The translations under genes were made by a program, and so were the position numbers. This document shows positions 10,163 through 49,159 of a stretch of 64,000 nt of DNA, piece by piece. The notes beneath the pieces were generated by a model. The model saw only the letters and a program-made list of their open reading frames with translations. It had not been told where the DNA came from and searched no databases. The stretch covers positions 8,833,822 through 8,897,821 of the forward strand of contig OZ025872.1 of the NCBI GenBank assembly GCA_964019415.1. The letters are read 5' to 3'. Position 1 is the stretch's first letter. Each line of letters starts with the position of its first letter. This stretch comes from Ianthella basta. Its lineage: Eukaryota; Porifera; Demospongiae; Verongiida; Ianthellidae.

Positions 10163-10871
10163 TCAGTGGCTATCCTGCCACAAAAGATACCACAATACCA
10201 ATGATGGTGATAAACAGGAAAGCAATGGAGAATACAGAATTGGTTCTAACATTGCAGCAGCAGTTTCATTCAGTGCTTGAATCTTGATGCTTCCTGAAGC
10301 AGCCGCCAATATCCCAATGCCAGAATCCTTCGCCTGCAAGAATATTCCTTCTAATTGATCGACTTTGATTTCGTAGTACTCGTTTGGGTCCGGTTGTTTG
10401 GAGTCCGGCAGTATGGGCTGTGACAGCACCTTGGGTATAGTCCAGCATATGACATGTGCGTGCTGCACAAAGATCACAAAACAGACCATTCCAATCACTC
10501 CTGTCACAAATGCCCACGGCCACCCAATGAAGTCTGTAAGAAAAGGCATTGGAGGGATCAAGCAGATGTAGAATATAAATGCTCCTACCATATAACGAAT
10601 GTACCAGTAGGTGCGGAGTTTTCCGTAAGGAATATATAGACGACTTGTCTTAATTGATATAGAAGTTGGTGTGGACGTAGATGTCATTACGTAACACCGA
10701 CCGCCTGCCAGGTAGCCTTATAACAGTGGCAGCTTCTCTAGCCACATGTCCAAACTCTGCATCATTCACTCTGCCAACGAGGGCAGAGGTGTTCGTTTCA
10801 CTTACAATATTAATTGGCTGATCTTGTTCTTCTGTGCTTCTGCTATACCTGATATTGTACCGTACGTTCAT
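10163..10871 (-). pseudogene. Membrane-protein family copy 1 (divergent, frameshifted)
   Basis: This is the most divergent member of the six-copy family. It keeps NDIYVHTNFYI, then YIPYGKLRTYWYIRYM, the hydrophobic hairpin, WTIPKVLSQPIL, DSGIGI and IKIQALNETAA. The N-terminal part (10650-10871) and the main part (10163-10687) are in different frames. One extra base in the AAT-TAA region near 10650 separates them, because FYI should run straight into KTSRLYIP. The C-terminus after LNETAA has no similarity to the conserved Cys-rich membrane segment. Either it is a pseudogene, or an assembly error or unusual splice is involved. All members are on the minus strand. Confidence 0.75.
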
Positions 10872-12724
10872 GCAGTCAGCACTTCAGTTTTATATAATTA
10901 TGTTTTGCATTCAAGGTGAACTGATCCGCTTCCATTTTACGTTTAGAGTAATACATATGTACAGTGTACATGCAACTGCCTACAGGCTGCAATTGTTACA
11001 AGGCGTGAAACTTTAGAGTGATGCACTAATAGTGTTTTTATATGATTGCATGCATGGTGAAAGCTGCATGCATGGTTCTTCTGTCTCCATGAATGCCAGA
11101 TGCATATAATTATAGATGATTTTTCTATTCATATGGCTCATAACTCAAGACCAGCAAAGCCATGCACTCCCCTGCCAATTCATCAACTACGTGTATGTTT
11201 CATAGTGGTGCTCTTTGCCTTGTGGATACTACAGAATCGATTCCATGGTCACTTACTGCATGAGCTGCCTGTATATGTTCACAGTTACTGTTACAGTAAT
11301 GAAGGTTAACTTGGGTGCAGTGTCGAATAACGTCATTGCTAAATACTAAGTAATTAAAGTACTAGTTATCTACCACTCCAGAAATCATAATCGCACGGAT
11401 TCACAGTTACGGCGGTTGCTTGCAGTTAGCCACTGCCAGTTGGTGAGTATACCATTCCATCTATTGCCTTGTATAGTGGCTTACTGCAAGCAATCTCTCC
11501 CTTTCAGCAACACTTCAGCTGTGCTTGTAGCCTCCCTTGTCTGTTTCTGTCGAAACCACAAGTTTTTAACTTGTGGTGGATGCAGAAGCCAGTCATCCAA
11601 CATGTACATCAACCATCAGTACGTCACACTGTTGAGCTCCATGCAATCAGGATGAAACAGTTGTCTGGGGCTCTTCCATCTTTGTTGAAACACTGCATGG
11701 GGAGGCAATCACATGGTTGTCAACTCAATAGGGCTTTGGCCTCTTACCAACTGAGACACCAACAGGTGTAGTTAGTGTGGGTTTGGCATAATATCCATGC
11801 AGTGATTACCATTCAATTCACATTGCATGATCTCTTATATCTCTTATGTGCATGCATATTATGTAAATTGAAGTGTTTAATGAATATATAGGGTCTCCTA
11901 ATGCATAATGACTAGGTAGCTGTTGTCACTACAGTTCTGGGCAGCACAAATAATACAACAAAACTAAATATTACAATACTACATATTAAACACCTTGTAA
12001 AAAATTATTACATATTTATACTTAAGTGCATTGAATTTTAATGCCTAAATGGTAAGAGCTTGATAGGTTAAATCAGAACACTTCCCTGTGTGTAAGGTAT
12101 TGGAATATATAATTATGACATTGTAGAATATTGAAGATGGGAAAGAAGTTGAACAACTGGGCACCTGGGACAATAGCCTATGGCTAAAGGTTCCCCAGTC
12201 TATATAATGATCCCCTGGTCCTGATCCTTGATCCCTGAACCACATGTACATATGCATCAAACCGTGTTATGTATACCATGCAGAGAGGATTAGGTAGTGC
12301 TTATGGATGCGCAGGTATGCTTTCAATGTCATCTCAACTGCTACAAAGGCTGACCCATATCGAAACAACATTGAAAGTAATGAATATCATTAAATAGTTC
12401 TATACCTATTTACCGCCCACCATGTCTTAAAATGGTCATCCTATGTGTTACTATTCATAGGTTAAGGGAATCAGTGCAAGTTCCACAGCTCCACCTCACA
12501 CATGCACACACATACATAGCAGTCACACAATCTGTTAGTAATAATGCAGGTCACTTCACTGACAAGCAAATTAAAGCAGTCACCACATGCTGTGAATTAA
12601 TGATGCAGAAGTGGAATAATACGATAGTTAGTATGTAATATACATATTAGCTATATCAGCACACTCAATCTAGATTGTTTTGGAAGCAAAATCTCCAGCC
12701 GCAGTGGCACAGAATTAGACAATG
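10872..12724. other. Intergenic; shared 3' flank of copy 2
   Basis: No gene is recognised. Positions 12362-12475 hold a block (aacattgaaagtaatgaatatcatta, then atggtcatcctatgtgttactattcatagg) that recurs downstream of copies 3 to 6. Family duplication therefore included several hundred bases of 3' flank. Confidence 0.5.
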
Positions 12725-13483
12725 CTACTGCATGGTGTTAGCGTTAAGGTATGGTGCCTGTGTGCCTTCCTCCGCCAAAGCAGCTGAGAAGCGGGCTGCA
12801 AAGACGATTGCCGACAAAGTTATAACTAGAATGGTGACCAACAGCATACAGCAAGACAGGCAGGAGCTCGCACGCACAGTGCGAGCAGCAGTCTCGTTCA
12901 GTGCTTGGAACTTGATACTCGCTGAAGCAGAGCCTGAAGCTGATTGAACAATCCCGATTCCGGAGTCCCATGCGCTCAGGAACACCTCTTCAACTCTTTC
13001 CCTCGTATATACGTAGAAGTCGTTTTCTCGTGGTTGTACGACATCCGACAGGATGGGCTGCGAGAGAACTTGTGGAATCGTCCAGTAGACGACGTGCATA
13101 TGCTGCGCGAATATCATCAGCCAGATCAGCCCAATTCCGCCCGTGACGGCAGACCAGGGCCACATGAAATTGGGTACGAACGGCATTGGGATGCACAAGA
13201 CACAGTAGATAAGGAACACCCACCGCATGAAACGGATGTAGAAGTAGGTTCGTAGTCTCCTCTGGGGAATGTAGGGACGACTTTGTTCGATGTAGTGGTT
13301 CGTCTTGACATAGATGCTCTTTCGCAGAAAAACCGTTCTTCCAAACTTGCTGAGCTGGGATCTCACCTGCGTAGCTTTCGCCGCCTGAACTCCATCAACC
13401 TGAACAGCCTCTACGGTTACTATCCGCTCACCCAAAAGCGGAGTGGATGGGTCTTGTCTTTGTCGATAGGGGTTTGCGGACAT
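12725..13483 (-). CDS. Unrecognised 3-TM membrane protein family, copy 2
   Basis: A single-exon ORF of 252 residues; I do not recognise the family. The start MSANPYRQRQ is conserved in four other copies. Layout: polar N-terminus with DPSTPLLGE (11-19); a basic, Tyr-rich stretch KSIYVKTNHY and YIPQRRLRTYFYIRF (55-85); two hydrophobic segments at about 86-105 and 109-128, separated by IPMPFVPNFMWPW, which suggests a membrane hairpin; then QHMHVVYWTIPQVLSQPIL; a soluble part with WDSGIGI and IKFQALNETAA; a Cys cluster SSCLSCC (207-212), possibly palmitoylated; and a third hydrophobic segment at about 213-231. Unlike the other copies it has a 4-residue SASA insertion and a different tail. There is no signal peptide and no enzymatic motif. 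The intact frame, with substitutions at many sites, suggests a functional gene. Confidence 0.8.
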   Translation of the reverse strand: MSANPYRQRQDPSTPLLGERIVTVEAVQVDGVQAAKATQVRSQLSKFGRTVFLRKSIYVKTNHYIEQSRPYIPQRRLRTYFYIRFMRWVFLIYCVLCIPMPFVPNFMWPWSAVTGGIGLIWLMIFAQHMHVVYWTIPQVLSQPILSDVVQPRENDFYVYTRERVEEVFLSAWDSGIGIVQSASGSASASIKFQALNETAARTVRASSCLSCCMLLVTILVITLSAIVFAARFSAALAEEGTQAPYLNANTMQ

Positions 13484-15797
13484 GTTGTCAGGACGTTATG
13501 CTGTACTTCCGCCCCGGCTACTTCCGTAAAATGGCTGTTACTCTAATACCTTTCACAGTAGAGAGATTGGACATGCATGCAGTAGGCCATGGTGAGATAA
13601 TTTGACAATGAAAGGTAGATTGTAAGATACTCTGACGACAATGCACCTTGGAAACTGCATGAGTGCAGATTCTCGAGAAGGCCTCAGGAAGAAATATGCA
13701 ACTAGTTGCAAACATTGCACATGCATGTTTGTCTGGTCCAGTGATCACGCATGGGTATGTATATATCAGAGGCTGCAGTGAAGAACCTGCTGTTGGTAAA
13801 GGGATGCAAATAGCACATGGCCATGAATGGCTTCGAAACACACTGAACCAAATGAATGTCACACAAAAGACAAGATTAAATGGTTCAATTTTACCCCAAC
13901 TATAACAGATGAATAAACACAAGACTGATTGATGCAAGACGTTTGCATATTACATTATCTCATTCATTAAAGTTCTGTAGATGTTCCAAATAATCTGATC
14001 AGCAAAATATTGCTGACCTCTGAAAGTGATACATAAAATAATCTTCACACCAGGGCAAATACTGTTACTAAAATTAATATTGCATAATGTTTATTTTATC
14101 ATAGCTTAAATTACACAAAAACGAGTGATTAAGCAATAATTTGACACAGTCAGAAACAAGTTGCAAATAACTATGTGATGCTTGGCTGCCCCTTTGCAGG
14201 GATTGTTGAAGGTGCTATTCCCAACACAAAATATGCATCATACCTCATTTGCCCATGCATGCGTGGTTCTCAAGCACTCATGAAAGATCTTCATTGCATC
14301 AGTTCTATATTTGGAGGTTCGTGCTTCTCCAGAATAGCTATACAGGAATGTGTTACAAGTCACACTGTATGATGCACAGGTATAATTTAGAGCTGGTAAA
14401 TATTAGAATAGATTTGCTATTATTAGTCTTTTTCTGCAATTTTGAGAAACTCATAAGTCAGCCACTGTACCGTTTTACATTCTTTAATCCAGCTGTTTGG
14501 TTTCCTTTGTCAATTATGTTGCTCAATTGAAAGCTATTGTTTGCTCCTGTATTAACCCATCTGTCTGTAATACCTTATGCAGACACTGCTGTGTAATAAA
14601 TATAAAAGTATATACCCAGCATATAATAATATCTACATCTCTTGCATGGCATGCCCTGCCTATGTAAAAGCACAATCATACATAATGTGTCTATGCATAT
14701 GTACAACCACACAACCATACATAACGGGTATAGGGCAGATATGTTTAAACCAATCCAATATTATTTTAATTAATGATAAGCTATTTCCTGAGTTAGAACT
14801 GCAGGATTTCCTGAGAAACTAAACCACCGAACATTTAACTAGTGAGCAGTACTGCAGCTTTAACTGAACGATGGGGGAGCAGGATGTTTCATTGTCAAAG
14901 ACCCCCGGGTCAAAACGTCCTGCTCCCCAATCGCAGCTATGAGCCTCTATTAAATCAAATTAAACCATCTGACAAGTGCACCTCAGCAACACAGACAGTC
15001 TTGTTTGCTGTACATATGCATTCCTGGTCCCTAGCACAAGAATATAAGTAAACAAGCACCATGTGAGCTATACGCGTTGTAACACATACTTGACAATAGT
15101 ACAGCTTTCCTATATCCTGCAGGTCATATAGCTATACTCATGGAGATGAGGTTACAGTTTCAGTGCATGGTACGTATATACTAGCACTGGACTGTGTAAA
15201 CTGTTATAGCTGTGCACAATAAAGTATGATGTGTTTTGGGATAGTTCAAAGATCAGTGTATATCTTGACTGTGTGACTGAAGATCATTCGCTCACAGTGG
15301 ATAATAGGCGAAGGTGCGAAAGACGTTGGTATATATCCAAGCGTATACACAGCCATATTCGACCGGAGAATTGGGCGGAGCCTGCAGATGTGTTTACTTT
15401 CACAATCAGAGCAATAGTTACATAACATGACCATAGTCAAACAACATTGAAAGTAATGAATATCATTACACTGTTGGTATACCCATTTAGCGCACCCCAT
15501 ATCCAAATATGGTCATCCTACTTGTTACTATTCATAGGTTAGGACACAAATGTACTTTAAACCGCAGTTCAACCATAAGCCAAAACTTGAAAGAGCACAC
15601 AATATAGTTCGTAAGATCACAATACAAAGGGAGTTACTGTGCGGTAGAGATTAAATCAGCATTGCATGATATTCAGGTAAGCATTTGCTAATGTAAAACA
15701 AGCTCTCATTCTCACTAGCTATAGCAAGCTAACTTTAGAGTACTTTCAATGCTAGTAGCTACATCAAACACTTTGCCTATCTATATGGAAGTGCAAT
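13484..15797. other. Intergenic between copies 2 and 3
   Basis: No gene is recognised. It contains a strong hairpin at 14870-14931 and the shared 3'-flank block at 15441-15546 (gtaatgaatatcatta ... atggtcatcctacttgttactattcatagg). Confidence 0.45.
14870..14931. other. Isolated long hairpin, about 60 nt
   Basis: TGGGGGAGCAGGATGTTT is followed by a loop of about 22 nt and then AAAACGTCCTGCTCCCCA. The stem is about 18 bp with a single T/C difference that becomes a G-U pair on one strand. The compact single hairpin could be a pre-miRNA-like transcript or the remnant of a foldback element. No transcription signal is visible. Confidence 0.35.
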
Positions 15798-16532
15798 TTA
15801 GGCCATATCAGTGGTGGTGACATTGAATTGTGGTGTCAAGGTGGCCGTGAAGCGGTAAGCAAAGATGCCTGCTGACACAGCGACAGCTACAATGGTTACC
15901 CACAGCATACAGCAAGACAGGCAGCAGCTCTTGCGCACAGTGCAAGCAGCAGTCTCGTTCAGAGCTTGAAATTTAATGCTTCCCGCAGCTGCCTGATGTA
16001 TCCCGATTCCCGAGTCCCTCGCGCTCAAGTACACGCCTTCAACTCTTTCAACCTTAAATTCGTAGAAATCATTTTCTTGTGGTTGGGCGTCATCGGATAG
16101 GATTGGCTGCGAGAGAACTTGTGGGAGCGTCCAGTAGATGACGTGCATGTGCTGCGCGAAGATTAGGAACCAAATCAGTCCGATTCCGCCGGTGGCGGCA
16201 GACCAGGGCCACATGAAATTTGGCAGGAACGGCATTGGAATGCACAAGACGCAGTAGAGAAGGAACACCCAACGCATGAAACGAATGTACAAGTAGGTTC
16301 GGAGTTTTCTGTTGGGGATGTAGGGGCGACTTTGTTTGATGTAGTGGTTCGTCTTGACATAGATGCTCTTCCGTAAGTAAACCGTTCTTCCAAACTTGTT
16401 TACTTGGACTCTTTCCTGCGTAGCTTTCACCGCCTGCACATCTCCCACCTGAACAGCCTGGAGGGTAGTTCTCCCCTCGCCCAAGAGCGGAGTGGAAGGA
16501 TCTTGTCTTTGCCGATATGGGTTGACGGACAT
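15798..16532 (-). CDS. Unrecognised 3-TM membrane protein family, copy 3
   Basis: A single-exon ORF of 244 residues from the conserved start MSVNPYRQRQDPSTPLLGE. The frame is open to 16580, but the conserved start is at 16532. It is close to copy 2: KSIYVKTNHYIKQSRPYIP, hairpin hydrophobic segments, CIPMPFLPNFMWPW, HVIYWTLPQVLSQPIL, DSGIGI, IKFQALNETAA, SCCLSCCML and a last hydrophobic segment VTIVAVAVSAGIFAYRF. The tail TPQFNVTTTDMA matches the tails of copies 5 and 6 (APQFNVTTSGG), so this tail is ancestral and copy 2's is derived. Function unknown; probably an integral membrane protein of the endomembrane or plasma membrane. Confidence 0.82.
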   Translation of the reverse strand: MSVNPYRQRQDPSTPLLGEGRTTLQAVQVGDVQAVKATQERVQVNKFGRTVYLRKSIYVKTNHYIKQSRPYIPNRKLRTYLYIRFMRWVFLLYCVLCIPMPFLPNFMWPWSAATGGIGLIWFLIFAQHMHVIYWTLPQVLSQPILSDDAQPQENDFYEFKVERVEGVYLSARDSGIGIHQAAAGSIKFQALNETAACTVRKSCCLSCCMLWVTIVAVAVSAGIFAYRFTATLTPQFNVTTTDMA

Positions 16533-20046: not shown

Positions 20047-22197
20047 TCATGCTGAGGGTACTCGACCCTCTGCAATCGCCAACTCAATCACTGCAGCAGA
20101 TTGACGGGAGGAACGAGCAGACCTTGATCCTCTGATTGCTGCTATGGCTGCTCGCAGGAGACTGAATGACAGTTGGCACCGGAGCCACTGCATCACGCGG
20201 CAGTATCTCTGTCCTCTCTTCTCAGCTATCAGTGCAGCTAGACGCTTGTAGGCAATTGTAGTTGATGGACCCATTCCTCCACATGCTGAGAAGACCAAGG
20301 GAGTGAACGAGTCATGTTCAATCTCTCTTATTCTTTGGTCATACATCCTTCGCTTCTCTCTCTCATGTCTCTGAAAATTCGTCAAGATATTAGGATTTTG
20401 GTTGGAGGCTGCCAGCGGGTTAGCTAAAAACCCTCACGTCAAAAAATGCATCCTGATGCTTGATCCAAAACCCCATACATCTGATGTCCCTACGACTGTC
20501 ATCTTGAACATTGGCTGATCTCCCTTGTAATTTCTCCCCAGTAAGCAGCTGCAACGGTGGTTCAATTTCTGTGGAGTGACTCACTTCCTCCATAAGCATG
20601 GGTGTAAGGTCACGGATGTCATTGTGTGTCGGTGGATTGGAAGACTTCCTTTTGTGCAACTCAGAGCATGTTGTACAGAGTTTGCCTTGCCGCATGGGCA
20701 TATGGAGGGAAGGTTGTTTGGAAGCCATCCATATCTTAAAGCCAGGGCATCCCTGAAAGCTCCTTTATTCAGGGAAAAGCCATGTTCCTCAATCGGTAAG
20801 GTTCTTAACCACGCAGACGCTCCCTTCTCTTGTGCTAGAGTGGCTGCATTCTCAGTGGTACTGTTGAGTGCCTCCAAAGTCATCTTCATTTCGCCCTCCT
20901 GTTGCTTCTTGTTCTGTTGTCTGACCCTTTTCCTGGCCTCATTTTGTTGAGCCTCAACTTCAGCAGTATGAACTGCACTCTTCTTCTGTAGGGAGCACAT
21001 AAGTGGCTCTGAGACAAGGAAGGAGTTGGCTAACTCATTATCAGCGCTATCTGGCAAGATGGGAATTCCTATATAGGCCTCCTAGGTTCGTGGGTAGAGC
21101 AAACAGCCTCCTTTCTGCATCACTGATGTTTTTTTCCCTATTATGGCTGGTATTACTTTGTGGCGAATGACATCCTCTACAGGATGCAACAGCTCTGAGA
21201 TGCTTCGTCTGGTTCTTGCTAGGAAAGACCATTTATGTTTCAGACTGAAGACTAGTGCGGAATAGGCCGCTTGGGGTTGGGAAGCAGCTATGTCTGCCAA
21301 CTTTTCTAGCTCACGTACCCACTGGTCAACCTTCTCCCTCACAAAGGCTTCTTTGAAGGAAGTGACACCAATGGCTGAGCCAAGGTATCTAACTCTGGCA
21401 GAAGTAAGTTGGATTCCAGTGTCTCCAAAGACTGCTTGGGCTTCTGGAAGCCATTGTTCCTTCACAACTAGAAGACACTTTGATGGATTTGGGAAGTAAC
21501 CAAAGCTAGGACCAACTATCTGCAATTCCTCCCACCATTTCTTAAGGCTCTCGATAGCTCCAGCTGCAGAAGAGTTATCCGCATACCAGCTTTGTGAGGC
21601 CAAGTGCTTAAGACGCAGGATCAGCGTAAGTATGCCAAAAGCATACATTGACATTGCCAAGGGGTCTCCTTGGGTTGTGCCCTCCCTGGATGGTATGGTC
21701 TCCCCATCAATGAAAAGTGACGGTTCCAATCGGTAGGTGTTCACCAGGGTGGCTGCAAAGGCCGGGCACAGAGACTGAACATTCATCAAAGTGGCTTGGC
21801 GATTCAGATTGTTGAATGTATTAGATGCATCAATGAGCAGTATCCCTTCCGATGTATCCTCATGAAACAGCTCTTCCAACACGTGTACGGCTGCTTCGCA
21901 TCCACTTTTCTGCCCCACACAAAGCTGATGGGGTCCAACAGCCTCTTGGATGTCATAACGGATGACTGAGAGGATTGCCTTGCTCAGAATGCATCTCACC
22001 ACTTCCCCGATACCTATTGGCCTAACACCTGGGCACTTGTCTGGCTGTAGAGGTTCCAGATCAACAAAGCTGGAACTGATTCTTCTTGCAGTACTGGCTA
22101 TTGCCTTGCGTGGTTGCTCCTGGCCGTCATTTCTGCATTCATTTGGCGGTGCTGAACTAACTATCACTTCCTGTTCCACTCCACAATCATCCTGCAT
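20047..22197 (-). pseudogene. Degenerate non-LTR retrotransposon (RT plus C-terminal nuclease-like region)
   Basis: Four minus-strand frame segments follow each other: 21082-22197, 20581-21057, 20420-20728 and 20047-20385. The first carries reverse transcriptase motifs: motif A LLIDASNTFNNLNR, the GTTQGDPLAMSMY block, and YADN where YADD is expected, so the second catalytic Asp is lost. Later pieces carry EKGASAWLRTLPIEEHGFSL, a CxC...H...C knuckle (CPCGKANSVQHALSC), DIRCMGFW..AFFDVRVF (nuclease-like) and FTPLVFSACGGMG near the C-terminus. This order is typical of a retrotransposon family common in invertebrates. Frameshifts lie near 21060-21100, 20700 and 20400, and the N-terminus is missing. 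It is dead. Confidence 0.85.
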
Positions 22198-26088: not shown

Positions 26089-26685
26089 CTTTGTTTTTGG
26101 AGGAAACATTTTTACGCACCCTTTATACATATAACCTCAATAATGAATAATGTTGTCCCACCCTTCACGTTCTATTGTCTTGTTTTGAAATTATAATTAG
26201 CTAATGAATGCTATTACCAATACTGTGCACCTGTTTAACATGTCCAAACATGGACATCCCTGATGTTACTATTCATTCATTAGGATACAAATGCATGATT
26301 ATGCATTTGAAACCACCATGCACAACGGTTTACTTCAATCATATTATACAATGTCATTAAAGCAGATAGAAAAACAGTACATATATGTAGCAATATTCTA
26401 ATAGTCACTTCAACATTGTTTATTCAACAGTGTTCCTATATTGTAGCTACAATATAATATAGCTAATAAGGTAGCTATGTATAGCTATCACTGCTAAATT
26501 TGGTAATGCTCAGTCACACATTATAGCTATTATATACTAGTTTAGAGCAGCTAACACTTCTGTCCCAGTAAGTCTTAGAATAGAACTATAATAGGCAATA
26601 CTACACACTGATGAATGGCATATTGTTGTATCACAGTGCATGCCACTTAACCGCCACTGGTGGTAACGTCGAACTGTGGTGTCAT

Positions 26686-27396
26686 TTACTGTGCGTAGTT
26701 GGCCGAGAAGCGGAACGCGAAGATGCCTGCTGACACAGCGACAGCTACAATGGTTACCCACAGCATACAGCAAGACAGGCAGCGGCTCCTGCGCACTCTA
26801 CAAGCAGCAGTCTCGTTCAGAGCTTGGAACTCGATGCTCCCTGAAGCTGCCTGGACAATCCCAATTCCAGAGTCCCTCGCTCTCAAGTATACTCCTTCCA
26901 CCCTTTCAAGCGTAAACTCGTAGAAGCCGTTATCTCGTGGTTGTACGGCATCCGACAGGATGGGCTGCGAGAGAACTTGTGGAATCGTCCAGCAGACGAC
27001 GTGCATATGCTGCGCGAATATCATTAGCCAGATCAGCCCAATTCCGCCCGTGACGGCAGACCAGGGCCACATGAAATTGGGTACGAACGGCATTGGGATG
27101 CACAAGACACAGTAGAGAAGGAACACCCACCGCATGAAACGAATGTAGAAGTAGGTTCGTAGTCTCCTCTGGGGAATGTAGGAACGACTTGTCTCGATGT
27201 AGAAGTTCGTCCTGGAGTAGATGCTATCCCGCAAGGAAACAGATTTTCCACTAATTAATTTGCGCACTTGAATTCTCTCTTGTGCCGCCCTCGCCGCCTG
27301 CACTTCGCCCACCTGCACGGCCTGGACTGTAGTTTGCCCCTGCTCCAAGAGCGGATCGGACAGATCCTGACTCTGCCGATAAGGATATACAGACAT
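26686..27396 (-). CDS. Unrecognised 3-TM membrane protein family, copy 4 (C-terminus shortened)
   Basis: A single-exon ORF of 236 residues from MSVYPYRQSQDLSDPLLEQ (start 27396; the frame is open further upstream, but the conserved start is used). All family blocks are present: DSIYSRTNFYI, SYIPQRRLRTYFYIRF, the hairpin, HVVCWTIPQVLSQPIL, DSGIGI and the Cys cluster, although the latter reads RSRCLSCC. It ends at SANYAQ. A TAA replaces the CAA codon found in copies 5 and 6, and the old tail MTPQFDVTTSGG is still readable after it, so 13 residues were lost by one C-to-T change. A possible polyadenylation signal (AATAAA on the minus strand, 26419-26424) lies about 260 bp downstream. A foldback element begins 16 bp upstream of the ATG. 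Confidence 0.8.
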   Translation of the reverse strand: MSVYPYRQSQDLSDPLLEQGQTTVQAVQVGEVQAARAAQERIQVRKLISGKSVSLRDSIYSRTNFYIETSRSYIPQRRLRTYFYIRFMRWVFLLYCVLCIPMPFVPNFMWPWSAVTGGIGLIWLMIFAQHMHVVCWTIPQVLSQPILSDAVQPRDNGFYEFTLERVEGVYLRARDSGIGIVQAASGSIEFQALNETAACRVRRSRCLSCCMLWVTIVAVAVSAGIFAFRFSANYAQ

Positions 27397-27411
27397 CTTA
27401 TTCCAGCCGAA

Positions 27412-27608
27412 TTCAGAATGTTGGCCAAATGGCAAGTGGTTAATGATAAATGGCAAATGGCGTGACGTCATAGTGTGAGATCGAGTGTGGCACATGTGAC
27501 TAAAATGACGCGGTAGACACCACAATTTATGACGTTCTCGGTGACGCTCGCCATTTGCTCTTTACCATTTTGCGATTTAACATTTGCCATTTGGCCAACC
27601 ATTCTGAA
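27412..27608. mobile_element. Foldback/MITE-like element upstream of copy 4
   Basis: The left end ttcagaatgttggccaaatgg is the near-complement of the right end ccatttggccaaccattctgaa. Inner parts also pair (aaatggcaaatggcg with cgccatttgctcttt). The element is about 197 bp. Homologues sit at the same place upstream of copies 5 and 6, so it predates the segmental duplication. It contains TGACGTCA (CRE-like) and would lie in the promoter or 5' UTR of the membrane gene. Confidence 0.75.
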
Positions 27609-27645
27609 ATCGATTGTAAGCGAGATTATAATTATTCATAATTAC

Positions 27646-28043: not shown

Positions 28044-28075
28044 CCCAGGTAGTGTTCACCGAGGAAGGACGGGAA

Positions 28076-28803: not shown

Positions 28804-28804
<1 letters not shown>

Positions 28805-28890: not shown

Positions 28891-28893
<3 letters not shown>

Positions 28894-31516: not shown

Positions 31517-32260
31517 TTAACCGCCACTGGTGGTAACGTTGAACTGTGGTGCCATTTGCTGTGCCAAGTTGGCCGAGAAGCGAAATGCAAAGATGCCTAC
31601 TGACACCGAGAAAGCTACAATGGTTACCCACAGCATACAGCAAGACAGGCAGCAGCTCTTGCGCACTTTGCAAGCAGCAGTCTCGTTCAGTGCTTGGAAC
31701 TTGATGCTCCCTGAAGCTGCCTGGACAATCCCAATTCCAGAGTCCCTCGCTCTCAAGTATACTCCTTCCACTCTTTCAAGCGTAAACTCGTAGAAATCGT
31801 TTCCACTTGATTGGACGTTATCTGGCCATATGGGTTGCGAGAGAACTTGTGGGATCGTCCAGTAGACGACGTGCATATGCTGCGCGAAGATCAGTAGCCA
31901 AATCAGTGCGATTCCGCCCGTGACGGCAGACCAGGGCCACATAAAATTGGGTACAAACGGCATTGGGATGCACAAGACACAGTAGATTAGGAACACCCAC
32001 CGCATGAAACGGATGTAGAAATAGGTGCGAAGTTTCTTGTGGGGAATGTAGGGACGACTTTGCTTGATGTAGAAGTTCGTCTTGGAGTAGATGCTATCCC
32101 GCAAGGTAACATATTTTCCAAATGTGCGCACTTGAATTCTCTCTTGTGCCGCCCTCGCCGCCTGCACTTCGCCCACCTGCACGGCCTGAACTGTAGTTTG
32201 CCCCTGCTCCAAGTGCGGATCGGAAAGATCCTGACTCTGTCGATAAGGATATAAAGACAT
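31517..32260 (-). CDS. Unrecognised 3-TM membrane protein family, copy 5
   Basis: A single-exon ORF of 247 residues from MSLYPYRQSQDLSDPHLEQ (start 32260). It is almost identical to copy 6 (48416-49159); differences include a PHLEQ/PLLEQ change near the N-terminus. Blocks: DSIYSKTNFYIKQSRPYIP, RTYFYIRFMRWVFLIY, IPMPFVPNFMWPW, WTIPQVLSQPIWPD, DSGIGI, IKFQALNETAA, KSCCLSCCML and VTIVAFSVSVGIFAFRF; the tail is APQFNVTTSGG. AATAAA on the minus strand at 31301-31306 could be the polyadenylation signal. The foldback element begins 16 bp upstream of the ATG. Function unknown. Confidence 0.85.
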   Translation of the reverse strand: MSLYPYRQSQDLSDPHLEQGQTTVQAVQVGEVQAARAAQERIQVRTFGKYVTLRDSIYSKTNFYIKQSRPYIPHKKLRTYFYIRFMRWVFLIYCVLCIPMPFVPNFMWPWSAVTGGIALIWLLIFAQHMHVVYWTIPQVLSQPIWPDNVQSSGNDFYEFTLERVEGVYLRARDSGIGIVQAASGSIKFQALNETAACKVRKSCCLSCCMLWVTIVAFSVSVGIFAFRFSANLAQQMAPQFNVTTSGG

Positions 32261-32275
32261 CTTATTCCAGCCGAA

Positions 32276-32465
32276 TTCAGAATGTTGGCCAAATGGCAAA
32301 TGGTAAAATCGTAAATGGCGAATGGCGCGTGACGTCATAGTGTGAGATCTAGTGTGGCACGTGTGACGCGTAGACACCACAATTTATGACGTTCTCAGTG
32401 ACGCTCGCCATTTGCCCTTTGCCATTTTGCGATTTAACATTTGCCATTTGGCCAAACATTCTGAA
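32276..32465. mobile_element. Foldback/MITE-like element upstream of copy 5
   Basis: Homologue of 27412-27608: it begins ttcagaatgttggccaaatgg and ends ccatttggccaaacattctgaa, about 190 bp, in the same position relative to the ATG of copy 5. Confidence 0.75.
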
Positions 32466-32613
32466 ATCGACTGTAAGCGAGATTATAATTGCTCGTAATT
32501 ATTGCAGAAAGTTGCCATAGTGATGAGCCCAGTATTATGGCTGAAGTCCATGTATACGAAGCAAGGAATGTTTAGACCTTAATTAGAAATCCATCATCAA
32601 AGTATTATTATAA

Positions 32614-32614
<1 letters not shown>

Positions 32615-32653
<39 letters not shown>

Positions 32654-37785: not shown

Positions 37786-39147
37786 TTAAAGGTCCACTGT
37801 TGCATTTTTTTTAAAAATTTTTATATTGATAGTGCTTTGTGAAACATCTTCAATGATACCCATTTCAGTGTGCTCTGCCTCACGATGGGGGAGTTACGAG
37901 GGCGCAAAGTTGCAAAAAAGACCAATTATGCGTGGGCGTTTCCGGTTTTCTGGTGGCAGCAATGCTAAAACGTCGTGACGTCGCAGTAGGCTCCGGAATG
38001 TTTGCACAAGTATGGAGGAGAGTAGGCCAGGCAACGGACTAAACAAGAAATCGTTATCTCCTGCGAGTCTTTATCTTAAGATGAAGGCGAACCTTCTTCA
38101 GACAATGAAGGAGATGCCCCTGCTGATTCTGAAATAGATCTGGGCATGCGGGTTGCGCAGCCGTACGGCACGACATCAATTTTGCGACACAACCAATAAT
38201 AGAGTGACGCCCATTCTCAGCCCTACAAACGCCGATTCGCACCATTCTTGGACTGTTACAAGAGCATACGAAACAGAGATGGTACACTAGCCTAGAGCTG
38301 ATTTGTCACCTCCTACAAGGCGTAACAGCTGAAATACGAAGTGTGCCGAAAACATATTTCGGAGCACTCGGCACATATTTCAGGTCACTGGCTCGCACAT
38401 CACGAGATGTAAGCATCTCTCCACTCCTACTTGCTAGGTAGTAGGGCACACACAAGCTCTGGTCACAGCAAAAGGTTCTGACTTCAGAGGAAAAACCATC
38501 CCCCTCTGCTCTCTACCAAGAACGGCTGCGCAGAACACCAGGAGGTGGGGGCATCGAAATGGCCCTGGGACGCCCTTTTCGTCATCCTAAAGCTACTACT
38601 CACCCTTTCGTCCTTTGTAGCGATTTGTCGTATTCTCGATTGGCTTTCTCTGTGCTAGGAAAGACTCTCCTGTAAGTTAAAGCGTCATTCGGATTCTGAC
38701 GAATGTACTAGAGTGAGCAAAGTGGTTGTTGCTAGAATATTTACACCAAGAAACAGCGAAATGGCAGGTAGAGCATCAGTCGCAATCCGAAAGGCGCTCT
38801 AACGTATGGGAGAGTCTTACCAAGTGCAGAAAGACCCTGCCAACAGCTGCTGGCCACCGCTTCTTCAGACTATCGCTCTTTGTGAAATGAAGCAGCGACT
38901 GTTGCCTCCACCATAGATCTATGCCTCCACTGGCCCTACTACATCCTCCAGCAACGCATTTGTGATGCATCGGGGCGAGTTCATCAGCAAGAGGGACGTG
39001 AATAGCCAGTTCCGGAAGTTTTCCGGAAGTGAGCCATTATCGCTCTACCAGGGAATTTCGAAGCGCTCTTAAAGCGATTTTCGGTGGTTTTAGACGATAG
39101 TCTATCATATAAAGGCAACTTGTATAACTGTGACAGTGGACCTTTAA
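37786..39147. mobile_element. DNA-transposon-like insertion, about 1.36 kb, in SAMM50 copy 2 intron
   Basis: Absent from unit 3, where gatagctttgagcattagtg runs through (about 51638). Ends TTAAAGGTCCACTGT and CAGTGGACCTTTAA form a terminal inverted repeat, with probable TA or TTA at the target. The interior is richer in GC (cgtcgtgacgtcgcagtagg, cggaatg) and has only short ORFs, such as a Cys-containing one at 38054-38287 on the minus strand. No transposase is recognised, so it is probably non-autonomous or decayed. Confidence 0.72.
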
Positions 39148-40071
39148 GTCTTAGTGTGTGCAGGTGTGAATACGTATACACTTGACATGCAGATACGTAT
39201 TATTGCAATAGAGGTGAGTATGCTGTAGGTGATCTCGACTCACTTATCAGAAGCTTGAAACCACAGTGGCCACACATAGTTAAACTCCACTTTGGCAGTT
39301 CCTATTCTCATGCTAACACCTGTCCCCACAGATAATCGGACATTCTTCCCCAGTTCTCTCAAGTTGCTAAATCTCTTCACTTCTACATACAAGAGCACAG
39401 TGACACAAACAAATCGCTAGCGTTAGAGGAACAACGCACAAAAGAAGCAAGAATCCCTTACCATATGCATGCCAGACCTAAAGATCATGCACAAATACAG
39501 GTACAATGTATAAGGTATAACCCGCAGTATGCACAGTCCCATTCTACACACAGTCAAATTGGACTGCACACTAGTTTGTGGAATTCACTACACTGGCACT
39601 CGCACAATAAAGTCAAACAAAGCTTTTGAAAATATTTACATTTGACCTTTCGCAATTACATTCCTTCAAAAGCAAAACCAAAACATGAAGCTTTGGTTTC
39701 TACTGCAGGTAGAAACAAGTACTCTCAGGCCTAGAAGATGTGCACGCTCTCGCTAATGTCTCATTGCAGGCCATTTACCTGTAGTTGTGAGGTTGCCTCC
39801 GGTGAGGAAGGAGTGCACTTTGATGCGCTGTCCTGAAATCCAACTTAAAATGGGAATGGGACTGTACAGGTGCAGTGCGCCCGCCCAATATAAGTGGCCA
39901 CCTAAACTGAAATCTACAGAGAAGGAAATATTTTGTAATAGCAGATGTTAATTGTGTGTGCGTGCTTGCGCATGCGTGTGTGTGTGTGTGTGTGAGTGTA
40001 TATATGTGTGCTTGTGTGTGTGCATGCATGCATGCATGCAATGTGTGTTTGTGTGTGTGTGCATGTATGTG

Positions 40072-40078
<7 letters not shown>

Positions 40079-40152
<74 letters not shown>
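40079..40152. repeat. (TG)n microsatellite, unit 2 intron 11
   Basis: A TG run in the intron between SAMM50 exons 11 and 12, flanked by gcatgcatgc and tgcatgtatgtg words. The homologous tract lies at 52585-52655. Confidence 0.9.
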
Positions 40153-40154
<2 letters not shown>

Positions 40155-42254
40155 ATGCGCATGTGCATGTGTGCGCACGCGTGTGTGTGTGTGCATGCAT
40201 GCGTGTGTGCATTCATGTTTGTGTGCATCTGTGCGTGTGCTAAAGCATTGCAGTGCGTACTGAAAGACTTCAACACCACACACACTGCACACTGTTGATC
40301 TGAAGTGTACGTTGTACAATACATAAATATACAGTATTAACAGTGCATGGCAATTGGTGTACAGTGTAGTGGGAACTCAAGTGAGCTTGCATGCGGACCT
40401 TTCTCTCTGGGCCCAAGTCCCCACATTCCAAATCCCCTGAGAGTTGTAGGTCCCCCAAGAAAGAATTTATCACTAATATGGGAATCTGGACCGATCGACT
40501 TCATCATTCCACCCCACAGAGAGCAGGAAGCAACTTGGACACGATGGCAGCAGAAACATGAATGACACTCAATGCATGAGAGGCTAGGTAGAGTGGTTAT
40601 ATATCACAACTACTAGTAATACAGAGATAAGTAGCAATAGCCAAAAGTCAACAGATACCATATAGTTTATATACACAACTACACACTGATTGGTGTAACC
40701 TTCACATTGTATTGTACAAGATATATACATAAGTAAATGTCACTCAAAACATATGTAGTGTTTAAGTGGTTATGTTAAGACTACAAATTTTAGCAGCAAC
40801 TTAATTTAGTGTTTCAAAAATTCCAGAAACGAGTAGGCACTAGTTTTCAAGTTTATCTATACAAAAACTTGCCTGCACAACAAATTATAGCGGGTACAGT
40901 GTTAGCGATTTTCACTACTCACTACCTGTGGTAAGTTAGCTATACTTGGCCTTCATAGAGAAGCAGCTGCTTTACAAAATTAGGCTGCAATGGTTCAATG
41001 CTATGTTAGTGCTATTTGGGGCCAGGGAGGCTGTATGTTTTAGAGAGGTGGCTTAACACAGTGACCATATTGACAGGTTTCGCTGCAGTACTAAACACGT
41101 TAAAGTAGCCAAACAGCCAATGGACAGTCTTAAGCAAATTTTCAACAACCCAAGGCAATGCTCATTAGTGAACAGAAGGGGTAGGTTGATGAGCATCTGA
41201 CCACAATGTGTGCTTGTGTGCACACACGCTACACACTGCATGGCATTGCACACCTGTGTGTGTGTGTCCTCTTGGAATACTAACCAGAGCGACTTACAAA
41301 CTCAGAGAAGATCTTCTGATACATTTCAGTCTGCACTTCCATCTTGCAAAAGCTCACATTTCCTCCCAGCCCTGCCACCTCCTGCAGAGTGAACAGTGAG
41401 AAGGATTGTTGAAAGGTCACTTCATTACAGTAGGCCACTGGAATGGACAGGCTGGGCTAGGTTGAACAAAGGGCTAGTCACTAAATTTTATGCCTACCAG
41501 CCTTCTGAGGCAGCCCTTTGTTCTGTGAGAAGGACCTCACGTGTACAGACATACACACACAGACATGGACCCCTGACACACACACAAGCACACCAGTGCA
41601 CACACAAGTGGTCATCACCTGCACTATCTTTGCAGTGTGCCCACTATGGGGGTTCCACACACAGTCCCTTGTATCAGACGCCAACACATGCTAAGGAAAA
41701 AAGGAGAAAGATGAGTTTCACTTGAAATGCTCCACTTGGCAGAGCAGGAAGAACTGCACACAACACTGCAAACTCGCAAACATCCACACATAGTCAAATC
41801 AAAAATGCAACAATTTTATACTCTCTTAAGCAATATTTGTGAATCCCTTAAAAATACAAAGCTGGGCCCTCAACACCAAGATCCACTTTCTACCACAACA
41901 CTCACACTGGGGCTGCCCAGAAAACGAGAAAGTTTTGTTCTTTTTCACAAAAATCTGCTAATTCGTAAGGTTTTAAAACATTTGTATGTACAAAGTACAC
42001 ACTGGCACCGCCCAGGTGGCCATTACAATTTGACTCTGAATACAAGTGGTTAACACAACCAGTTTAACGGAATACAGTAATTATAATATTATAAGTACTG
42101 CAAAGATGTATGGTTGGTGTCTGACCTTGATGGAAGACTTTAGTGTATGCCCTCCGTGTTCTCTCACTGACATAGGAGCAGACTTGAAGAAGCCAAATGT
42201 CTCCCTCCAATCAATGGACCAACCCAGGTTGTGTTCACCAAGGAAGGATGAGAA

Positions 42255-42507
42255 CTGGAGAAATGTGGGGCGAAGAGAGTGCAGGGAGGGAGGGAAGGAG
42301 GGAGGGGGGAGGAGAGGGGGAGGGAGGGAGGAAGGGAGGGGAGAGAGAGGGAGGGAGGAAGGAGAGGAGAAGGGGAGAGGAAGGGAGGGGAGAGAGTGGA
42401 AAAGAGGGGGAGAGGAAAGGAGGGGGAGGGGAAAGGAGGGGGATGGGGAAGTGAGAGGGAGGGAGGGAGAAGGGGAGAGGAAGGGAGGGAAGGAGGGAGG
42501 AAGAACA
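42255..42507. repeat. Polypurine tract, unit 2
   Basis: Homologue of the unit 1 and unit 3 tracts, abutting the exon 8 acceptor of the SAMM50 copy. The gene strand is almost pure C and T. Confidence 0.85.
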
Positions 42508-42954
42508 ATTGATCTGAAGAAAAATATTTACAGAACCTTCAGTCTCGTTCCACAGTTTGCAGTCAGCAGGTTGTCATGTACTGCTACATAACTCACCAGC
42601 AGCTGTACTGAAGTGCCAGTTGTTGTCTGCTGGTACCCACTGAATGGGTGATCCAGTTTGGCCGTCCCCAAAGACAGAAGTAGTCTACAATAGGAGAAGG
42701 GTATACGCTGTATACCTCAAGTGACCACATGTCATATGTACATATAAGGGTACACACACATCAATGTGGATACGTTCAATAAGGGACACTCTGAAGTCAT
42801 GAACCTTCAGGACAGTGCTGTTGTCCCAGCTATGTACACAGAGATGTGTATAAAACAATCTCTGAAATGAGGGCACCTCTCTAATGAGGACACTTGGTCC
42901 AGCCTTAAACTGCCCTAAACGAGTCCAGGGTATAAATGTGTCACTGTACCACTG

Positions 42955-43790
<836 letters not shown>

Positions 43791-45079
43791 GATAATAATT
43801 GCCACACTGTAATTGATTAATGAACTCCAAAATTGCAGCTTGACCTAGGCAATGACTATGCATGCATTTCCGTACACAAAACGAAAGTGCTTTAAAGTTG
43901 GTCACACACACACACCTCTTCCTAAGGTATGCAATAAAAGGCTTGTTGAACTCCAATTGCAGGATCTGTCCCCATCGAGGGAACTCAGTTGATGTCGTTG
44001 CCTTGAGCTCCTCAGCACGACCAAGGAGGTTGCGTAGAGCAAAACTGACAGACTGATGACAGGGGGAAAATAGTGACAAATTAGTGACAAGCGTGACTAC
44101 AGTAGTTCTACCACCAACAGTGACGGTGACATAGATGACAGTGATAGTGTGCACAGGAAATAAAACAGTGGGGTGACAACAGTGATGACAGTGACACCTG
44201 ACAACACAACAACTTGACAACAACAGTTGTAACAGCTGTGAAATACAGGTTGATAACAGTTTCCCACAAAAAAAAAGAACAGATGTAAGGATGGTGATGT
44301 GTGTCTCTACAAATACGTTCGCATGTCCAATTGTTTTGTGTCAAGGAAACACACAGGCAACACTCTCTGTCCAGTGCATGGGATGGTCTAACAGGTCCAG
44401 TGACAGTCTAGCAAGATAGACCCTCTTTACCTATGTACGTAGGTAGCATAGATAATGGAAGGGTCTAGCGCGCTAGATTAGCCCAATGGTGCAATGTCAC
44501 CAAATATGGAAGTTGGATTTCCATACTCACTATAGTTTCCTCAACCTACCTCCTTCTCAACACAAGCACGTTCAGCAGATAGCTAAACACACATGCACAC
44601 AAACACAAAAAACTCACACCCAAACATGCACATACTCACACACACTCAACTCACGGCATCTCCGGCTTGGTTCCCTGCATACGCCACAATGCTGGCACGG
44701 AAACATCTCTTCTCCTTCACCTTAAACACCACATCAATGTAACTCTTGCTAAGGGATGACCCAGCAACTGCAAAGAGAGAAATTAAAAAGCAACACTTTT
44801 CCAGTTGGAAGCAGGTATGTGGGTGACATATACGATGTACGTATACGTACATACATTGAAACGTACATACATTGAAACCTGTCTAAGGGGCCAGTTCTAA
44901 CTTTTATTTAGCTATATTATTTATTAACTTTAACTAACCTTTATGGAGAGGTGGCTGCTCTACAGAAGGGAATTGCAATGCTTTAGTGCTATTTGGGGCC
45001 TGTTTTTTAGAGCGGTGGCTGCCTAACCCAGTGACCATTTTAGACAGTTTCCACTGTATTTCAGAGTAGTTAATGAAGG

Positions 45080-45269
45080 GACCTTCATTAACCACCTCGC
45101 ATTTTAATTTCTTTGATTGACTGGACTTATTCTTGAGGGGGCACCCCCTCATCTGACTGCATATTTTTCTTTTATTCTATTTTTCTTTTACTCAGTTTAT
45201 ATCTCAGGCAGTGCGCATGTGTGCCTATTGTATTTTACATTATTATAATTGTGCACTTTAAAAAAAAAA
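45080..45269 (+). mobile_element. 190-bp poly(A)-tailed retroposed fragment
   Basis: Flanked by a 12-bp target-site duplication AGTTAATGAAGG (45068-45079 and 45270-45281). The uninterrupted site is present in unit 1 (30159-30170). The insert ends in a run of about 11 A. It could be the 5'-truncated end of a LINE, a SINE, or the 3' end of a processed mRNA; I recognise no coding sequence. Confidence 0.78.
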
Positions 45270-45473
45270 AGTTAATGAAGGTGTGTCAATATACATGTGA
45301 GAAGGGGACTGAGGATTGGCCTACAACTTTCCAACAAGATAACATACACACTTACCATGAATAGCTAAGTGCGAAAATACTACCTATATACTCGTATATA
45401 AGTGTTGCCACCTGCTGGCTCACCCTTTTCATGGGGTCCACTTAGCCAAGTCTTGGCTGTGGTATTACAAGTA

Positions 45474-45588
<115 letters not shown>

Positions 45589-45906
45589 ATGCTTGTGTGC
45601 GTGTGAATTTGTGTGTGTATGAATTTGTGTGCATGTCTGTGTGTGAGAGAGAGTTCACGTGTACACAGGTGTGTGTGTGTGTTTGTTACTTCCAAGTCCA
45701 AATTCACTTGTCTTTGGCTTTAGTTAGCAAAACTTCAATTCCTTCTTTGAAAACATTGAGCTGGTTCAGATTGTTCACTGCAACATGAACACGCTCAAAG
45801 GCCTGCAATGAGTGTAAGGTATATATACCAAGACATCTGCCACACAATGTCATAGTGGTGTATACAGTAGTATAGTACAATAGTATACACCACTATAATA
45901 TTATAA

Positions 45907-46286
45907 TACCGTACTGATCGGTTTTTAAGCGCATGCGCTTATAGCTCTGGCAGGAAGAAATATGCGCCTAATATAGGATATGCGCATAACAAACGAATGG
46001 TTCATGAAATTATAATTATATGCAAACGTCATATTAATATGGCCGCCGCCTAGCGCAGTAAGTGAGTTCTCATTCAAGCGTTATTTTTACTAGCTTATAG
46101 TCATTATCACACTTCAGGAAAGTGGCTAGGTTACCAGGGAGTCCTTTTATGTGCCTAAAAAGGAGTGAATCCCTGAAATTACTATGCGCATAGCAATTAG
46201 AGTGAATAGCTAACTGGTAAGATGTGTGCGCTAACAGAGGTTATGCTCTTATAAGGGGGGGTGTTTAACAACCGATCAGTACGGTA
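45907..46286. mobile_element. 380-bp MITE with TA flanks
   Basis: TIRs: TA-CCGTACTGATCGGTT at the left and AACCGATCAGTACGG-TA at the right. Inside are repeated gcgcata/tatgcgc words. Unit 1 retains only its first few bases (tactgatcgg, about 30606-30615) immediately before the unit 2 boundary, so the unit 1/2 junction cuts through a copy of this MITE. Confidence 0.8.
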
Positions 46287-46769
46287 ACTGTTCAGGCCTT
46301 CTTGATCACATTGTAAGTACACATCTAGTGATAACCAAAAATTTCTAGTCACAATGTTAATTCATTTCAGATATAATTATATCATGCTCAGTCTATTATG
46401 GAGATCAGACTAACCAAAAGCTATGCAGTCTTAACCGAAATTACTATTTGCTACTCCCACCAACTTTGGCAGTCAATGTCATTTGCATTCAAACAAATTA
46501 AAGCCTTTCTCAACTAATTCTGAAGTTCCACCTTAGCCTATACTACCACTAGTATAAGCGTTACGGTTGGCAGATCAACATGCTCCCTGTGAAATATACC
46601 CAAGGCATGTAGCTAACTATCATTGTATGCAATAATCATTGCCAATACCATGGCCAAATCATGCACTATCCACAATTTCTCCTGAACCAGTTGACTTAGC
46701 TATATAGCTAGCTAGCTATCAGGCTTCGCCCATGTCCCTTTAGTGGAACGCACACAATCGTATAGCTAC

Positions 46770-47592
46770 TAGTGTATAAAAATTCTTTTAGAATTAAAAG
46801 GGATTTAGGAATGGCCAGCAGAAAAGCATAGAAACAAGCAACAGTAACTCAACACCATGATGAACCACATTGCCATGAAGGTCGCCATGCATTCCTAATT
46901 TCCTTGTGAAGCTACATGAGCCCAAATGTCTAGCTAGCCAGTCCCATGTAGCTACAAGGAAATTAGGAATTTTTATACACTAGTTTGTACAGTTTTTGCA
47001 TATCCAAAGGGCTATGGTACATCAGATTGATACCAGCGCTGACCCCTTCCTTAAATTAGCTGAAGATTGTGCAGAGCATCGAGCACAGTTATGCCACTTT
47101 AGATGAAGCGACCGCCGTGTACCGTTCGGTATACCAGCGCAACAAAATGGCGGCATTGGGGTATCTTTAATACACGGGGAGGACAAATTTCCTGCCCGCT
47201 CCAGCGCTGTACTTGTCGGATTGCCACCGGCGCTCAGATCCTAGTCCTTGACCTAGGTACGTAAGTCCTCGCGCACGACTTAGGACCGTAGGTGCCCGGT
47301 GTCGTGCGCTAGGAGCGCGCAAATATTCGGTGGGAAGGAGAACAAGAATAATATGAAAGACAAAATGGGGTACGAGCAGCCTATGACGCTTTTCTCTTAC
47401 GTGCATTCCAGGTTGCCTTTGGGTACGCTGCCGTCGTCAATACATCAGAAGAAGCCTACCCATGGCCTTTAATTGTTCTTTGCCACTGCCGTTTGGCTAG
47501 TTTCACTGAAGCGCCCTAATACATTAAGATAGGGACGCCATTTTGAACCGGGCACATTCCCTTAAATAGACGTCACGTGATGTCTGGTAGAG
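46770..47592. repeat. Foldback interspersed repeat, second copy
   Basis: Matches 5385-6190 in inverted orientation: accgt.cggta.acc, attgccaccggcgctcagatcctagtcc, gtcgtgcgctaggagcgcgc and ggccttta-attgttctttgccactgccgtttggc. A segment at 46770-46925 (agtgtataaaaattcttttagaat) is repeated inverted at about 46935-46990. It sits where the missing exons 1-3 of SAMM50 copy 2 would be. Confidence 0.7.
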
Positions 47593-48415
47593 GATGAATG
47601 GTATGGCTCCCTTTAAGCAGATGCAGCTGACCATACACCACCACATGCATAAATCCATGCCTGATAACGGTGGACCTCATGCACCATATCTTTCACTACA
47701 ATGATTAAAATTTAAGTATGCTACTCATCATCCATATAATCTGTCACTGACTGGGCAACTGTATACATGTAGGCAACAAATTAGAATGAATACAAATAGC
47801 AGCTGCTGGGAGGCTGTACAACGAGAGCATCATTACATTTTTTATCTGTAATTGCCGGCCTGAGGTATAGAGGAACCTTGCGGGTCCATGGTGACGTTAT
47901 GAATACAATTATATATTATAACCTCAATAATGAATAATGTTGTCCCACCCTTCATGTTCTGTTGTCTTGTCTTGAAATTATAATTAGCTAATGAATGCTA
48001 TTACCAATACTGTGTACCTGTTTAACATGTTCAAACATGGACATCCCTGGTGTTACTATTCATAGATTAGGATACAAACACATGATTATGCATTTGAAAC
48101 CACCATGCACAACGGTTTACTTCAATCATATTATACAATGTCATTAAAGCAGATAGAAAAACAGTACATATACGTAGCAATATTCTAATAGTCACTTCAA
48201 CTTATTGTTTATTCTGAATCAGCAGTATTCTTATTATTATTATATGGCTACAATGTATAGCTATATCTGCTAAATTTGCAGTCACACAGGTATATACTAG
48301 TTTAGAGCCTAACTAACACTTCTGTCCCAGTAAGTCTTAGAATAGAACTATATTATAGGCAATACCACGCACTGGTGAATGGCATATTGTTGCCTCACAT
48401 GCAGTGCATGCCACT

Positions 48416-49159
48416 TTAACCGCCACTGGTGGTAACGTTGAACTGTGGTGCCATTTGCTGTGCCAAGTTGGCGGAGAAGCGGAACACAAAGATGCCTACT
48501 GACACCGAGAAAGCTACAATGGTGACCCACAGCATGCAGCAAGACAGGCAACAGCTCTTGCGCACTTTGCAAGCAGCAGTCTCGTTCAGTGCTTGGAACT
48601 TGATGCTCCCTGAAGCTGCCTGGACAATCCCAATTCCAGAGTCCCTCGCTGTCAAGTATACTCCTTCCACTCTTTCAAGCGTAAACTCGTAGAAATCGTT
48701 TTCACTTGATTGGACGTCATCTGGCCATATGGGCTGCGAGAGAACTTGTGGGATCGTCCAGTAGACGACGTGCATATGCTGCGCGAAGATCAGTAGCCAA
48801 ATCAGTGCGATTCCGCCCGTGGCTGCCGCCCAAGGCCACATGAAATTGGGTACAAACGGCATTGGGATGCACAAGACGCAGTAGATTAGGAACACCCACC
48901 GCATGAAACGGATGTAGAAATAGGTGCGAAGTTTCTTGTGGGGAATGTAGGGACGACTTTGCTGGATGTAGAAGTTCGTCTTGGAGTAGATGCTATCCCG
49001 CAAGGAAACAGACTTTCCAAATTTGCGTACTTGAATTCTCTCTTGAGCCGCCCTCGCCGCCTGCACTTCGCCCACCTGCACGGCCTGGACTGTAGTTTGC
49101 CCCTGCTCCAAGAGCGGATCGGATAGACCCTGACTCTGTCGATAAGGATATACAGACAT
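48416..49159 (-). CDS. Unrecognised 3-TM membrane protein family, copy 6
   Basis: A single-exon ORF of 247 residues from MSVYPYRQSQGLSDPLLEQ (start 49159). It is nearly identical to copy 5 along its whole length, with the same hairpin (FMRWVFLIYCVLCIPMPF), WTIPQVLSQPIWPD, DSGIGI, IKFQALNETAA, SCCLSCCML and tail APQFNVTTSGG. AATAAA on the minus strand lies at 48209-48214, about 205 bp past the stop. It lies immediately downstream of (left of) the complete SAMM50 gene and on the same strand; the two stop/start signals are about 1.2 kb apart, so they are separate transcripts. It is intact. Function unknown. Confidence 0.85.
   Translation of the reverse strand: MSVYPYRQSQGLSDPLLEQGQTTVQAVQVGEVQAARAAQERIQVRKFGKSVSLRDSIYSKTNFYIQQSRPYIPHKKLRTYFYIRFMRWVFLIYCVLCIPMPFVPNFMWPWAAATGGIALIWLLIFAQHMHVVYWTIPQVLSQPIWPDDVQSSENDFYEFTLERVEGVYLTARDSGIGIVQAASGSIKFQALNETAACKVRKSCCLSCCMLWVTIVAFSVSVGIFVFRFSANLAQQMAPQFNVTTSGG

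Follow-up and report, generated by a model that had tools for sequence, protein, structure and literature searches.

A tandem cluster of membrane-protein genes

The window analysed here, a 64,000-nucleotide stretch of the 209-Mb genome of the sponge Ianthella basta (C5:8833822-8897821), carries on its minus strand a tandem cluster of genes for small membrane proteins. Five of the frames are complete and uninterrupted and encode 236-252 residues: copy 2 (12725..13483), a three-pass membrane protein of 252 amino acids; copy 3 (15798..16532), of 244 amino acids with its ATG start at 16532; copy 4 (26686..27396), in which an early TAA shortens the C-terminus and leaves a protein of 236 amino acids, 8-16 residues shorter than the other intact copies; and copies 5 (31517..32260) and 6 (48416..49159), each of 247 amino acids. 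Copies 2, 4, 5 and 6 share 76-78% protein identity with copy 3, the in-frame length differences among copies 2-6 are whole codons, and the coding DNA of copies 5 and 6 is 96.0% identical over 744 bases without gaps.

The family extends beyond the window. Genome searches with copy 3, two members on contig C3 and the upstream copy u1 as queries agreed on 12 loci, comprising u1 (C5:8794839-8795606), a second upstream copy u2 (C5:8800661-8801362), copies 1-6 on the same contig, and four divergent members, d1-d4, on C3 at about 340 to 407 kb. The u2 and u1 genes lie ~33 and ~38 kb beyond the low-coordinate end of the window, and d1-d4 are 28-35% identical to copy 3. Two 3′-end fragments (C5:9369353 and C3:364173) complete the set; a match on C15 (E 0.04), found in a genome search with a family query, stands outside the 12-locus count.

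Copy 1 differs in status from its neighbours. Its open homologous core (10256..10660, minus strand, inside a mechanical open reading frame (ORF) at 10163-10687) retains ~133 residues homologous to the family, and it is flanked by an N-terminal remnant (~10569-10796) that lies in a different frame and contains a stop, and by an out-of-frame tail. The core is 86% identical to u2 and 77% to u1, compared with 55-62% to copies 2-6, which places copy 1 in this sister (u) subfamily, as a decayed member. We therefore rejected equal standing for it as a sixth member, given the broken frame and the closer match to u2. An initial annotation of this DNA had described six intronless minus-strand copies with intact frames in copies 2, 3, 5 and 6. 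Related frames do occur at all six places and the coding frame is indeed intronless, but the sixfold array dissolves into five intact genes, copy 4 among them, and one decayed relative, within a family of 12 loci.

Selection on the reading frames

These genes form a genuine protein-coding family, with frames kept by selection. Pairwise ratios of nonsynonymous to synonymous divergence (dN/dS) were 0.20-0.37 among copies 2-6, and a codon model returned an omega, the corresponding ratio, of 0.277 for the same five copies. An omega of 1 was rejected with differences in log likelihood (delta lnL) of 46.0 for the five window copies, 44.6 when copy 4 was left out, 66.1 for seven C5 copies and 24.3 for the four C3 copies. 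Copies 5 and 6, the most recent pair (synonymous divergence dS 0.10), carry 17 synonymous changes over 175 sites versus 13 nonsynonymous changes over 566 (Fisher p 7e-5), and the 3′ flank of this pair is 92.9% identical with 16 gap positions. DNA matches of at least 150 bases between copies 2, 3 and 4-6 end within the frame or at most 8 bp upstream of the ATG. Because dN/dS lies well below 1, the copies are probably used, as the initial annotation had proposed with this ratio named beforehand as one of its checks.

Constraint was also compared along the protein, although several of the regional counts were too small to use. Among copies 2-6, four overlapping pairs gave a dN/dS of 0.11-0.14 for the hairpin formed by the first two transmembrane segments (TM1 and TM2), and in three of these pairs this was the lowest regional value; the u1/u2 hairpin stood at 0.88 at low dS.

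Conserved sequence and predicted topology

Eleven proteins were aligned (copies 2-6, u1, u2 and d1-d4, with the decayed copy 1 left out), and hydropathy indicated three hydrophobic segments in every one, bearing out for copies 2-6 what had been read from the window alone. The d1 protein has an additional fourth peak, which is weak and unfavourable in transfer energy. Positive charges in the 15 residues that precede TM1 number 3-5 in nine of the 11 proteins and two in d2 and d4. The positive-inside rule links positive charge to the cytosolic side, and these charges therefore suggest a predicted topology in which the N-terminus and middle loop are cytosolic and the tail is outside. Consistent with an outer tail, an NVT sequon occurs in the tail of copies 3, 5 and 6, though not in that of copies 2 and 4.

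The alignment contains 21 invariant columns, 15 of which border the hairpin on either side: in Y-x2-TN-x-YI-x2-SR plus the stretch that leads into TM1, and in F-x-QH-x2-V-x3-T-x4-L where TM2 ends. The family-wide signature is Y-x2-TN-x-YI-x2-SR before TM1 together with F-x-QH-x2-V-x3-T after TM2. The sequence blocks listed in the initial annotation are present in the window, but several are confined to subsets of the family. QALNETAA, described there as strikingly conserved, is present in all eight C5 copies and absent from all four C3 members, and was rejected as a family signature; it marks one subfamily group. The cysteine cluster is likewise limited to copies 2-6, and the N-terminal NPYRQ block occurs as such in copies 2 and 3, with YPYRQ in copies 4-6. 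An Asp lies within TM2 in three of the four C3 members (d2, d3 and d4), whereas charged residues are absent from all three predicted segments of the seven C5 proteins.

The N-terminal part of d1 (L017 928-1542) contains about six tandem 32-residue repeats, counted by eye, with 49% identity at a lag of 32 compared with at most 18% at lags 15-79 in 500 shuffles. A genome search for repeats of this type recovered only d2, which has part of the array, and one low-complexity match. The match, on C2, was rejected as it lies within a low-complexity repeat stretch, a scanned fragment of which gave a sub-threshold DUF3432 match (E 1e-4).

Search for relatives

No match exceeded a curated Pfam cut-off in 10 proteins of the family, the best E values being 0.003-0.007. 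The sub-threshold matches comprised FA_desaturase in three of the 10 (E 0.0032, 0.0066 and 3), DUF2207_C in four (E 0.091-5.6), 2TM in three (E 0.88-2.7) and DUF4758 in one (E 0.0064), with further single matches at E 0.02-0.9; the best for d1 had an E of 0.56. NCBIfam gave a single match for nine proteins (E 0.02; 14.3 bits versus a cut-off of 150), and the best PHROGs match for five proteins was between phrog_8329, of unknown function, and the d1 repeats (E 0.0051). A PDB profile search returned a best E of 1.4, and d1 alone matched KtrA (E 0.0011) and the designed protein HeliScrew4 (E 0.004). In our judgement the d1 matches to KtrA, HeliScrew4 and phrog_8329 reflect composition or membrane segments, and they were set aside. 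Pattern searches of viral contigs (79 matches) and of bacterial and archaeal contigs (213 matches) contained no relative, phage records queried with copy 3 yielded none, and five peptide strings of the family had no occurrence in the literature searched. Judged by these searches, the family is an orphan, with no credible relative in Pfam, NCBIfam, PHROGs, PDB or the prokaryotic and viral contigs, and the earlier statement that it has no recognisable homologue holds over the same collections.

Duplication history and upstream DNA

Copies 4, 5 and 6 lie within duplicated blocks that share long flanks (e.g. 26123-27644, 31153-32501 and 47909-49478). A palindromic dispersed repeat, resembling a miniature inverted-repeat transposable element (MITE), is located just upstream of copy 4 (27430..27620, minus strand), and recurs upstream of copy 5 (about 32294-32477) and, in two pieces, of copy 6 (about 49193-49454). 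Of 132 candidates in the genome, 40 were scored; the 64 matches listed from these are spread over 18 contigs and include a cluster on C7 (C7:2053146-2375293). The octamer TGACGTCA, which we take to be a cyclic AMP response element (CRE), occurs 74-77 bp before the ATG in all three of copies 4, 5 and 6, and in two of five dispersed repeat copies checked beyond the gene cluster, both of them neighbours on C1.

Four other C5 copies carry a different motif. In copies 2, 3, u1 and u2, CGGAAG occurs once or twice in the sense orientation, presumably as an ETS-type site, at most 105 bp from the ATG: the proximal upstream region of copy 2 (13484..13533, minus strand) has two, at -43 and -28, and those of copy 3 are at -105 and -36. 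By way of background, 2.3% of random 150-bp pieces carry one such site on either strand. From these sequences we infer that the repeat may have been inserted ahead of the duplications that gave copies 4-6, taking the place of the proximal promoter.

A later insertion distinguishes copy 5 from copy 6. Upstream of copy 5 is a reverse-transcriptase element (32825-35815, minus strand) with an intact 996-aa ORF, a Cys-rich N-terminus and an RVT_1 match (E 4e-18). The matching place at copy 6 (about 49576-49605) is empty, and the element was thus inserted after the two copies split.

Other features of the window and genome

A second reverse-transcriptase ORF (21082-22197, minus strand; RVT_1 24.1 bits, below the cut-off of 29.6) is probably a degraded element. 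Large segmental duplication blocks, mostly 87-93% identical, occupy 28043-30870, 39142-46000 and 51640-56946, and long CA/TG arrays occur near 42900-43800. Outside the family genes, 5405-6148 and 46768-47577 share a repeated element, ~0.6 kb of it inverted (90%) and ~0.15 kb direct (92%). At 3213-4354 (minus strand), ORFs of 216 and 178 aa overlap each other; they have no Pfam match at E<=0.01 and are possibly exons of another gene. Four neighbouring stretches, each searched against Pfam in a single frame, yielded no match. Among the contigs looked at, 12 of C1-C23 span 6.0-16.6 Mb and C24, C25, C26, C30 and C96 are each below 0.1 Mb, a split that suggests 23 chromosomes. The 21-kb C96 carries cox1 with nine in-frame TGA codons and an ATP-synthase subunit c (atp9-type) gene; atp9 on animal mitochondrial DNA is a sponge trait, and the gene accordingly points to a sponge as the host.

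Candidate roles

We tentatively favour, at only a little under an even chance, an interpretation in which these are recently duplicated genes for small integral membrane proteins that act as a membrane-embedded scaffold or adaptor. The protein would consist of a cytosolic N-terminus, a two-segment hairpin, a cytosolic middle of ~65 residues, a third membrane segment and a short outer tail. The Y-x2-TN-x-YI-x2-SR and F-x-QH-x2-V-x3-T blocks would form one conserved juxtamembrane surface, and the variable N-terminus, built of tandem 32-residue repeats in d1 and partly so in d2, would select the partner. Such a role is proposed because little would be exposed outside and most invariant residues flank the hairpin on its cytosolic side. 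A membrane-shaping or scaffold protein had also been put forward in the initial annotation as one possibility.

Several points weigh against this interpretation. The scaffold or adaptor role, taken alone, is derived from the topology and is doubtful rather than probable. The u1/u2 pair has a higher dN/dS (0.57), and the 90 bp upstream of copies 5 and 6 are 97.8% identical, as alike as the coding region. Seven of the 10 members examined have a poly(A)-type signal no more than 600 bp from the stop; copies 2, 3 and d2 have none. The d3 gene lacks the N-terminal part and the start seen in d1 and d2, and its own start is uncertain. On the promoter side, CGGAAG was chosen as a motif after inspection, and it is missing from copy 1 (300 bp from a guessed start) and from d1, d2 and d4. 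Finally, structure prediction, a check suggested with the initial annotation, gave no fold in support: AlphaFold2 models of two window proteins, built from shallow alignments, were too poor to use, with a mean predicted local distance difference test score (pLDDT) of 42.2 and 42.9.

These low scores (mean pLDDT 42-43) are why the main rival is that the family belongs to a known membrane-protein fold but has diverged too far for profiles to recognise it. The shallow alignments behind the structure prediction leave room for such a fold, as do the KtrA match of d1 and the weak Pfam matches, which are mutually inconsistent. However, every Pfam match is under its curated cut-off, the PDB profile search went no further than its E of 1.4, the single invariant His precludes desaturase His boxes, and the KtrA alignment begins within a membrane segment although KtrA is a soluble domain; on balance we consider this explanation unlikely, if a serious contender. 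A small oligomeric channel or transporter-like subunit, with the tandem copies as subunit variants, would suit the three membrane segments, the strong constraint on the hairpin, the invariant Q-H at the cytosolic end of TM2 and the Asp within TM2 of d2, d3 and d4. It is nonetheless quite improbable, given that the seven C5 proteins have no charge in their predicted segments and that no family match was found. Least probable of all is that these are mostly silent, decaying duplicates under residual constraint. The broken copy 1, the shortened copy 4, the two 3′ fragments and the dispersed repeat that makes up the upstream DNA of copies 4-6 would all agree with decay, but the frames of copies 2-6 are open and copies 5 and 6 are still skewed towards synonymous change.

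A more far-reaching reading is one that we regard as rather unlikely. Here the proteins would represent an undescribed membrane fold, restricted to sponges or early-branching animals, with exchangeable cytosolic modules, the 32-residue array among them, displayed by a conserved juxtamembrane surface. Three recent copies would have come under new regulation, with the CRE-like site of a palindromic transposon substituting for an ETS-like ancestral promoter. If absent outside sponges, the family would provide a compact case, with intact frames, of selection acting on a lineage-specific membrane protein, and its duplicates of graded age and putative natural promoter replacement would constitute testable material. 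At present it is one more well-delimited orphan family among many in animals, and a function would outweigh its orphan status.

Comparison with known systems

FA_desaturase (PF00487), also a multi-pass membrane protein, aligns weakly over the family hairpin (best E 0.0032). However, the best score among the 10 proteins is 17.7 bits against a curated cut-off of 29.7, and desaturases have three His boxes and four membrane segments, whereas the orphan family has three segments. Because one His alone is invariant among 11 family sequences, the His boxes are absent, and membership was rejected on this basis and on the sub-threshold score. DUF2207_C (PF20990) and 2TM (PF13239) likewise place a soluble stretch after their membrane segments, and several copies weakly meet overlapping stretches of these profiles, but the best scores (12.9 bits versus a cut-off of 33, and 10.1 versus 24.8, respectively) remain far under the cut-offs; membership was rejected, and the E values of 0.09-5.6 are in line with general membrane-segment similarity. 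The proteins can be read as a two-segment hairpin with a strand-like stretch behind it, reminiscent of the hairpin-plus-PH proteins of bPH_2 (PF03703), and this too was rejected, with no profile match at E<=10 in the 10 proteins or in the genome. A further counterpart is a kind of family rather than a single one, namely the lineage-restricted tandem membrane families of animals, in which orphan families are common. These share tandem and segmental duplication, purifying selection and the lack of a recognisable domain. Nothing categorical distinguishes the present family from them; it adds a second branch, on another contig, that carries N-terminal repeats.
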